Shown here: piece after piece, positions 1,706 to 43,969 of the stretch | How positions within the stretch are numbered: the first letter of the stretch is position 1 | How the letters are laid out: the number at the start of each line of letters is the position of its first letter | Source: Sorex araneus | Taxonomy: Eukaryota > Chordata > Mammalia > Eulipotyphla > Soricidae | Length of the DNA stretch: 64,000 nt | NCBI RefSeq assembly: GCF_027595985.1 | Contig: NC_073304.1 | Location: 219,984,000-220,047,999 of the forward strand | Reading direction: 5' to 3' | Translations under genes and position numbers: made by a program | The notes under the pieces: generated by a model | The model's input: only the letters and a program-made list of their open reading frames with translations | Told to the model about the DNA's origin: nothing | Databases searched by the model: none

Positions 1706-2328
1706 GTAAGGCCTTCAGGGATGAGGATGCCCAAAGTGGTGCTGCCGAGTCATCTCCATTTGCCTTAGCCTGATGGTATCCAGGACAGGAAGAGTGAAGC
1801 GTGAATGAGTGATGTGGAGTTTCCTAGGTTCTCTTTTGCTGGTTGGGAGAGCTGGCGGCCAAGTCTGGTGTGCACCTTTGCTCCCTGGCTGGGGGCACAG
1901 CTGCCACCTTCCCCTGACTTGACCTCAGGAGAGAATCTCGGGCAAAGCTCAGTGGGGAAGGCAGGACCTGGGTTACCAAGACCCTGTGGCTTCTCCCTCT
2001 CTCGCACCTCTCTGGGCCTGTCTGAAGCTGTTGTGCTGATTTCTCTGTGTCTGGCCCTGGGCGCTGGTGTTTTAGAAAAGCCGTGGGCATTCTGCCAGGT
2101 CCTTGGCACAGCCTGGTCGGAACATGGAATATTCCAAGTTGCACATTTCCTTGGGGAGAGGGACCTTTCTCCTCCCTGTTTTTCTGCCTCGCTCTCTCTG
2201 GGAAATATGCTTAAGTACAAAGGGTAGGATAATTATGTGGAATATTCCAGATCATTCCTGGGGTTGGTGGTCACAAAAGAAAAAAGCCAGGGACACATGC
2301 TATAAAGTCTGCACCTCTCTGGTTTCTG

Positions 2329-2488
2329 TGTGTTTGGTTTTGGTCCACACCTAGCAGTGCTCCAGGCTTCTGTGCTCAGGAGTGACTCCTGGCAGGGCTT
2401 GGGAACCATTTGTGGCGTTGGGGATCAACTGGGTGGGCATCAGACACATGCAAAGGAAGTGCCTTAGCTTGTATACTATCCCTTTAGA
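2329..2488 (-). repeat. SOR-type SINE, old diverged copy
   Basis: The reverse complement of the SINE body (GCTCAGGAGTGACTCCTGGC) is followed by a degraded tRNA-like head. It lies in AOC3 intron 1. Edges are approximate. Confidence 0.7.
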
Positions 2489-2785
2489 CCCAGAGGTCTT
2501 TGCCTTTTCCCTTTCCTCCCCCCAGTGAATTATTTGATCACCAGATATTTTTTTCTGTCCTGACTCTATAATATCTTAAGCTCATGACATGGTCCATATT
2601 CACCCCATTGGGGCCAGCTCTGCTGCTTCCTCGTTAGCTCCCTCAGATCCTACGTCTCAGCTAGGCTACTCCTCTATGGCCCCCACTTTTCCATCTATAG
2701 GACTCGTCCCTGGCACCCGCCGACCTTCTTTGACTTTGCTTCTGTCTGCTTCTGGCCTAGAGAGTGGCTGCCCATGCCATTTCTT

Positions 2786-2946
2786 TTTCTTTTCTTTTTT
2801 TTTTATTTTATTTTAGGGCCACACCCAGTGATGTTCAGGATTTAAACCTGGCAGTTCTCAGGGAACTATATGGGATGCCGGGGATTGAACATGGGTCGGC
2901 AGCATGCAAGGCAAGTGCCTTACCACACTGTACTATCTTTCCAGCC
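2786..2946 (-). repeat. SOR-type SINE
   Basis: A T-rich run (reverse of the A-rich tail) leads into GGGCCACACCCAGTGATG and ends at CTATCTTTCCAGCCC, the reversed 5' head. It lies in AOC3 intron 1. Confidence 0.8.
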
Positions 2947-3413
2947 CCTTGGCCGTGTCATTTCTCCTGGCAACGTCTTCTGAGGCCAGACTAAAGTGTC
3001 TCCCAGGAAGGTCCCTTTGTCTCTCGTGTGTGTGATCCTGGAACTGGATCTTGGTTGTTTTCCTTCTATGAATGCTGACCTGGGCTGGGCCTCTCTGAGT
3101 CCCTGTGAAATCTGGACGCTCAAGATGGGCCTTCCTTCATCCCCAGGGCCCAGCACTGGACTCTCCATCACTGTGCTTGAATGAATTCAATGAAAGAAGA
3201 TGTCAGTTTACAGGCAACAGCCCTGACTGAAAGATTTGGAGTAGGGGGCGGGGTGTGTATTGGGGGTATAAGAAAGACAAGAGTCTTGGCTTTTTTCCTG
3301 ACTCTGAAGTCCAGTGGGGCAGAGTTCAGTGTGGGCCAGGCAGCTGCATAACCAGCTCCCTAACCAACCCCCTATCTCCTCCTCACCCCACCCGCTCCCC
3401 CCAACCCTGGCAG

Positions 3414-18792: not shown

Positions 18793-19070
18793 CATGCCTA
18801 AAGTAGATAATGGACCAATGATGACCTCTCAGTGTCTGTGTTGCAAGCCATAATGCCCTAAAGTAGAGAGAGAGAGTATGGGGAATATTGTCTGTCATAG
18901 AGGCAGGGGGAGGGTGGGAAAGGGGGGGTATACCTGGGATATTGGTGGTGGGGAATGTGCACTGGTGGAGGGATGGATATTTGATCATTGTGAGATTGTA
19001 ACCCAAACATGAAAGCTTGTAACTATCTCAAGGTGATTCAATAAAATTTAAAAAAAGAAAAAGAAAAAGT
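18793..19070 (+). mobile_element. ~280-bp retroelement with L1-type 3' end
   Basis: Flanked by a perfect 14-bp duplication AAAGGGCATCTCCC (18779-18792 and 19071-19084). It contains a GA-rich stretch, a G-rich stretch, GATATTGGTGGTGGGGAATG, and ends AATAAAATTT plus an A-rich tail. No ORF. It shares this 3' module with the copies at 19370, 21768 and 37532. Confidence 0.88.
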
Positions 19071-21752: not shown

Positions 21753-21767
21753 CAGGGCAACAGTCTT

Positions 21768-22636
21768 TTTTTTTCTACTGAAACATATTTATTCCCCCAA
21801 AAAGAATAGCAGCTAAAATTTAAATTGAGATATTTTTAAATGCATTCAATATATAAAACAAGCCATTGAATTTGTTTTATAATGGTTTCAAATATAAAAA
21901 TGTGAAATCGAATTTGAAGATTTCCAAATTAAATTAAACTTATAAGGATGCATCTTATAAAAGAAAACTCAATTATACATTTATTTATTTTTAGAGATTT
22001 TATATTATTATTATTATTATTATTATTTTATCACCATGTGGAAAGTTACAAAGTTCTCAGGTTTATGTCTCAGTTATACCATATTCAAACACCATCCCTT
22101 CACCAGTGCCCATATTCCACCACCAAAATCCCCGGTATACCCCCCGCCCCCCACCCCAACTGTATAACTGATGAATTTCACTTCATTTTCTCTTTACCTT
22201 GATTACGTTCCATATTTCAACACAAAACTCACTATTGTTGTGGGAGTTATACCCCCAAACAATATAACCCTACTAAGGAAGCATTTGATAATTAGTTTTC
22301 CATTAAAAGATTGTCTGTTTTTAGGTTTTAGAAAAGGTCGTGCGGCCACGTTCAGATGTGTCCCAGTCCCGAATCCCGGAGCCGTGTTAGTTGCTGCTCA
22401 GTGTCGCCAGGGCTCCATCTGGAAAAGGTGTGCTGGCTGCACCTCCACCTTCCGGCTCCCTGGTGTTGTTGGCCCCAATTCGGGTCCGGAGCATTTTCCG
22501 GGCCGCGTTGCTCACCAGAATGCCTGCCACTTCTTTGCTGGTTGTGGCAAGATGGCGCCAAGGGTGGGTCGAGGGCGTGACTTCCGGCGGGCCGGGACCA
22601 CTTGGAGTTTGGGCTGACGCTGCCCCACTCCAGTGA
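21768..22636 (-). mobile_element. L1-type non-autonomous retrotransposon with putative 3' transduction
   Basis: The whole block is flanked by a perfect 15-bp duplication CAGGGCAACAGTCTT (21753-21767 and 22637-22651). In element (minus) sense it has four parts: a GC/CpG-rich 5' part of about 300 bp including a CAAGATGGCGCC motif (+ strand, about 22548-22559); a short A/T-rich middle; the same 3' module as at 18793 (about 22230-22028); then (TAA)n. Beyond that are about 230 bp of A/T-rich unique DNA, a canonical AATAAA (reverse of 21788-21793), 13 bp, and a poly(A) of 7-9 (21766-21774). The inferred nick TCTT/AA fits L1 endonuclease preference. No coding capacity. Confidence 0.85.
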
Positions 22637-22651
22637 CAGGGCAACAGTCTT

Positions 22652-43047: not shown

Positions 43048-43457
43048 AAAAAGAATCTGAAAGATACCGATTGGACTCCGTACGAGACATCCATCGACAC
43101 GGCCCTGCGATTCCGGTCGCTTGGTCACCCACAACCCCTGCCGTCAAAGCCAAGCCTGTGGTAGCAGGAAGCTGCTTCCTGCCCCTTAAGTACCAGGTAA
43201 TTCTCTGGTGCAATACCCAATGTGGCAGGTGAATCTTCCATTCATTTTCACTTCTAAATAAACGATGTAAACTTAAAAAAAAAAATACTGACTGGAATCG
43301 TGGATGGGAAGAAACCAGGCGAGCTTGGCCCCTGGTGTCTGGGACTAAATGCTGTGATGGTTGGAGAGACGATGCATCCCCCCCCCCCAGTTCCCAGCCC
43401 CAGTGAAGCTCGCCCAGACTCTCCCCTCTTCTCACAGTCATTCTTTCCTCCGCTCAG

Positions 43458-43969
43458 GTATCGCTGTGGCCGAGACCTTCCGCTACATCCAGAGCATCTA
43501 CAATGCGAGTCTCAAGAAGTATTTTCTCATCACGCTCTTCCTGTTCAGTTTTGCCATTGGATTCTACCTGCTGCTTAAGGCCCTGGGTGTGGACCTTCTG
43601 TGGACTCTCGCGAAAGCCAAGAAATGGTGTGAGCGGCCGGAGTGGGTGCACATCGATACCACGCCCTTTGCCAGCCTCCTCAAGAACCTGGGGACTCTCT
43701 TTGGCCTGGGCCTGGCTCTCAACTCAGGCCTGTACAAGGAGAGCTGCAAGGGCAAGCTTGGCAAGTGGCTGCCCTTCCGCCTCGGCTGCATCGGGGTCTC
43801 CCTCATCTTCCTGCACATCTTTGACTCCTTGAAACCCCCATCCCACACCGAGCTGGTCTTCTATGTCCTGTCTTTCTGCAAGAGCGCCACCGTGCCGCTG
43901 GCCTCTGTCGGCCTCATCCCCTACTGTCTCTCCCGGGTCCTGGGCCCATCGGACAAGAAGTCTTTGTAA
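43458..43969 (+). CDS. G6PC1: G6PC1 exon 5 (last), residues 188-357 and stop
   Basis: The acceptor is CCGCTCAG. The 512-bp coding part equals human. It encodes the remaining membrane spans and ends SDKKSL, a C-terminal KKXX-type ER retrieval signal. The sequon N203 (NAS, AAT 43502-43504) remains. The position equivalent to human sequon N276 reads N-S-G (AAC 43721-43723) and is no longer a sequon. The open frame extends upstream to 43361, but that part is intron. Stop TAA at 43967-43969. Confidence 0.97.

Follow-up and report, generated by a model that had tools for sequence, protein, structure and literature searches.

The window, a stretch of 64,000 nucleotides from the genome of Sorex araneus, carries at positions 106–1773 an exon with copper amine oxidase domains (Pfam PF01179, PF02727, and PF02728). 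At positions 43361–43969 it includes an open frame which, from the way it reads, we take to be the end of glucose-6-phosphatase; no Pfam family was found in this frame at E 0.001. The insertion analysed here lies on the minus strand and is enclosed by a direct repeat of 15 bp, CAGGGCAACAGTCTT, at 21753–21767 and 22637–22651. An initial annotation of this DNA had described the repeat as a perfect duplication, and this was borne out.

In the sense orientation, the inserted block runs from a GC-rich monomer to a 3' module with a G-rich tract and on to a (TAA)n stretch, followed by an A-rich tail, 210 bp of foreign A/T-rich DNA, and AATAAA. After this hexamer come 14 nt and then a run of nine A residues that continues into the 15-bp repeat. 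The 5' target-site duplication (22637–22651; this and all following features are on the minus strand) reads AAGACTGTTGCCCTG in the sense direction and is preceded by AGGATT. The target before insertion was AGGATT/AAGACTG, which, judged by its letters, resembles an L1-endonuclease site. One additional base (22636) separates the duplication from a single unit of the monomer (22352–22635), which starts with CACTGG and probably has a promoter role. The 3' module (22022–22340) resembles L1 3' UTRs over its final ~160 bp (67–73%). The (TAA)n stretch and interrupted A-rich tail (21984–22032, with approximate edges) end in CTCTAAAAATAAA and are interpreted as the source element's own tail. The segment foreign to the family (21774–21983) is identical to C1:48788973–48789182 (L010, 1499–1708), and its AATAAA lies 14 nt ahead of the cleavage point. 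It is followed by a poly(A) with no counterpart at the donor (21768–21773) and by the 3' target-site duplication (21753–21767); one A of the nine-residue run is shared with the donor and two with the duplication. The extra DNA had been put at about 230 bp. Such DNA is indeed present, but its proper size is 210 bp, the remainder being element tail.

A search of the genome with the whole block gave 4146 first-look candidates, 40 of which were scored (the window included), so that the copy number is a lower bound and not a full census. Identity over the family body is 91–95% in the 39 other scored places, and none of these copies carries the 210-bp segment, which is left uncovered save for ~11 bp at its edge. 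The family unit consists of a GC-rich monomer of ~296 bp and an L1-like 3' end; in multi-unit copies, the match coordinates give a monomer period of ~296 bp. Additional upstream monomer sequence is present in 25 of the 40 copies and absent in 15. Among the latter, 13 of 15 start within ~3 nt of one base (CACTGG), and 11 of the 25 copies with extra monomer begin 84–101 nt farther upstream, as if transcription started at set positions of the monomer. A search with the monomer only listed 40 scored candidates, and all six new monomer-only matches that were inspected continue into the same 3' module. The monomer is thus joined directly to the 3' module in the 40 scored copies and at six further places, and the ORF1 and ORF2 that stand between the 5' and 3' regions of a standard L1 are absent. 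Two young L1 loci have 3' UTRs that share ~68% identity with the final ~160 bp of the module. Because of this direct joining and the L1-like 3' end, we regard the family as a non-coding, apparently L1-dependent composite, for which we coined the label mini-L1. The insertion had been designated L1-type; its 3' end and its target site are L1-like, but what was inserted is a short composite without coding regions rather than a standard L1. Its L1-endonuclease-like target, duplication, and A-rich tail are those of an L1-dependent non-autonomous element. Usable hand-checked duplications were obtained for 36 of the 40 copies (L007, L023, L029, and L042 were left out); these sites were listed by hand after a mismatch-tolerant duplication search, and some boundaries are ambiguous.

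Two other places in the window, at 18793 and 37532, had been named as further copies of the 3' module. They share only its last stretch, with identities of 73% over 159 bp and, depending on the scoring, 67% over 166 bp or 73% over 115 bp, respectively, and do not belong to the family; both look like ordinary, remote L1 3' ends. The genome carries L1 ORF1 frames of 351 amino acids without stops, and L1 proteins of this kind would be expected to mobilise the composite in trans. The idea that the monomer is the 5' UTR of the resident L1 was rejected too, since none of the 20 loci examined, out of 150 matches listed, has it upstream of ORF1. At one locus (L055, 3024–3288; G000:C10 near 2814700), monomer sequence at 85–88% lies downstream of an L1 ORF1 frame. 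Two of the ORF1 loci examined, L058 and L063, contain short matches to the 3' module. A full-text literature search returned no description of the composite family in the portions of text covered; we make no claim that the family is new to the literature.

The extra DNA was expected in the initial annotation to name its source locus, and it does so. With positions 21776–21990 as the query, the 2.4-Gb genome yielded two matches, the window itself and C1:48788975–48789182, and the stretch common to the two places is identical at 210 of 210 positions. When 711 bp of C1 served as the query, the only full-length match in the assembly was the C1 locus; other matches were to the 210-bp segment and to SINE-like repeats within the first ~150 bp. 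At C1 the element is absent and the sequence runs straight on at both sides, with no poly(A) at the cleavage point and no flanking duplication. Beyond the cleavage point the donor continues as AGTGCTGC, and the sequence downstream reads AGTGCTGCTTCT, which is GT-rich, as the region following a poly(A) site should be. Donor and copy diverge at the opposite end, at GGATATATT/TAAATG and ...CTCTAAAAATAAA/TAAATG, respectively, and the donor junction would fit cleavage by an L1 endonuclease. Since C1 thus looks like unremarkable flanking DNA (GT-rich past the cleavage point, lacking poly(A), and joined at an L1-endonuclease-like site), the sequence moved from C1 to C3, and the direction is clear.

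In an L1-type 3' transduction, a single target-site duplication encloses the element together with extra DNA that is unique flank and not part of the family, the insertion terminates in a tail that follows a poly(A) signal and is absent from the donor, and the source element lies directly upstream at the donor. The window insertion has the single duplication (15 bp, perfect), the unique flank, and the terminal tail. A full-length element directly upstream at the second locus had been named as the confirming check; C1 has none in this assembly, and that test fails. For this reason we file the insertion as one that works like a 3' transduction, its source being unproven. An old L1 3' end ~115 bp upstream of the C1 segment was considered as the source and rejected (75% identity over 69 bp, with the intervening sequence missing from the copy). 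The proposal of read-through past the element end with mobilisation of unique flank is nevertheless supported by the single donor and by the non-family status of the segment among the 40 scored places; its occurrence at the 3' end of many copies, which would have told against the proposal, was seen in none of the 39 others.

The event is recent, given the lack of any difference in 210 bp, from which we calculate a divergence bound of ~1.4% (95%). Compared with the majority sequence, the body of the window element has 13 differences in 547 non-CpG sites, and several of these recur in a subset of copies; its nearest relative among the 39 other scored copies is L024 (1.6%). Four substitutions in the body were seen in none of those 39 copies, against zero in the 210 bp, a contrast that gives at most a weak indication of the source's age.

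Extra DNA of ~50 bp or more ahead of the duplication was found in five of the 40 copies (the window, L006, L027, L033, and L039), that is, in 4/39 when the window is excluded. Shorter extras may exist in L004 and L035 (~20–30 bp) and in L041 (~17 bp); an exact genome search with the extra-tail pattern of L004 matched only itself. The donors are C1:378269947–378270293 for L027 (6 mismatches and 3 gap positions), C1:212941754–212942003 for L039 (4 mismatches in 253), C4:62906326–62906370 for L033 (1 mismatch), and C5:140737496–140737751 for L006 (95%), the last being less sure as the exact donor because related copies on C7 match at 86–89%. On C7, the interval ~3.0–13.3 Mb has at least 13 full-length matches to the extra segment of L006 at these identities, which look like a repeated or duplicated block. 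At all five donors read, that of the window included, no element adjoins the segment. In L027, L033, and the window, the extra DNA ends after AATAAA, and the donors have no long A run there; it ends with a truncated element end in L039 and with an older L1 3' end in L006. The L039 insertion (~2001–3010; G000:C3:75277542 onward) is tripartite within one duplication, with a full element, 253 bp from C1:212941754–212942003, and a 5'-truncated end of the same family, and its inner joint carries a small duplication, ATTGTCAAG. The two bases before the donor join are TT in the window and in L039, CT in L006, CC in L027, and GC in L033. The donors of L027 (CC before an A run) and L033 (GC) show no clear endonuclease motif.

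The available text of PMC4862182 quotes a figure of ~10% for human L1 and SVA elements with 3' transductions, to which 4/39 is near, and describes donor L1 as almost never seen at source loci in non-human primates. According to the accessible parts of three further papers, 84% of SVA transductions were traced, the rest being ascribed to lost or rare sources (PMC12593883); reference elements can carry flanking DNA from a source that the reference lacks and are termed 'proxy elements' (PMC13009371); and, pointing the other way, in one human map the source is in the reference for most transductions (L1, 217/268; SVA, 154/162), although by a method that needs a known source (PMC9311842). As far as the passages seen of PMC4862182 and PMC13009371 go, the window insertion resembles primate L1 3' transductions in its duplication, element, unique flank, and unique donor, as well as in its second poly(A) signal and tail, and the donor element in primates is likewise often absent from the reference. 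Unlike in primates, the element mobilised here is a short non-coding composite, known from one assembly. Set against the familiar structure of SVA, it is unrelated in sequence and host, and a monomer of ~296 bp with an L1-like 3' end replaces the SVA parts. Like SVA, as portrayed in the excerpts of PMC12593883, it is a non-coding composite moved by L1 that makes 3' transductions, and some SVA sources too are lost or rare.

We consider it probable (roughly 78%) that the insertion arose by 3' transduction by a short non-coding, L1-dependent element from a source at C1 that is polymorphic or lost; on that reading it adds a new instance of an established process. The source would have stood, or would still stand in other animals or on another haplotype, in minus orientation beside C1 48789182/48789183. 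Its transcript, presumably begun in its own monomer, would have read past the tail and been cleaved 14 nt after the AATAAA of the flank, and target-primed reverse transcription by the L1 machinery, probably acting in trans, would have placed a copy of this RNA in C3. The source missing from the assembly may be polymorphic or have been lost, and a large, short-generation population would, we infer, make lost sources likelier. Against this reading, five empty donors out of five would be expected in ~3% of cases if sources were neutral polymorphisms, on the rough assumption of one half each. The empty C1 donor together with the four empty sister donors keeps template switching alive as a rival: an ordinary transcript of C1 would have been the first template, with reverse transcription at C3 beginning at its poly(A) and proceeding for 210 nt before switching to the tail of an independent element RNA, so that C1 never held an element. 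We regard this as unlikely, although all five junctions begin at an A-rich donor stretch that would let the cDNA pair with a poly(A) tail (the L033 donor itself has A8 at the junction), the tripartite L039 with its inner duplication fits, and double template switching is discussed in the portion of PMC4476161 available. The element tail at the window junction is interrupted and A/T-rich (CTCTAAAAATAAA), with no pure A run, which favours transduction. The TT before the donor join in the window and L039 also speaks for it, as TT precedes 13 of the 36 hand-listed sites of the family against a 6.8% background, but this comparison covers five cases with hand-set boundaries and is weak evidence. The L1 chimeras attributed to template switching or RNA joining (PMC4476161 and PMC13174262, as excerpted) likewise fuse two RNAs within one duplication, but there the foreign RNA is 5' of L1, and here it is 3' of the element. 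Transcription at C1 was assessed via open frames in 9.5 kb.

That the family at large gains unique 3' DNA mainly in this manner, by reverse transcription starting on another transcript and then jumping to element RNA, seems to us unlikely; it would explain the five empty donors and the tripartite L039, and, if true, acquisition by jumping would imitate transduction. It is very improbable that the source is present at C1 in the sequenced individual and was dropped by haplotype choice or collapse, or that it was later deleted between its duplications. The assembly holds a single copy of the C1 locus, which leaves the other haplotype unseen, and the haplotype part is a sub-case of the preferred transduction from an absent source; a deletion is unneeded and must be exact, and C1 bears no visible scar. 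Least probable is that the 210 bp are family sequence or unrelated host DNA beside the insertion: nothing was found in favour, and the segment, missing from the other scored copies, lies inside the duplication and ahead of the poly(A) and matches C1 without a difference.

With transduction from an absent source as the preferred reading, a recently active source is to be expected at the single position that the segment singles out, C1:48789183. Whether a non-coding, L1-dependent family has lately been active in a non-model mammal can thereby be tested, and the five empty donors offer a test between two ideas, namely that sources of such elements do not last long in the population or that additional 3' DNA may be gained through template jumping.
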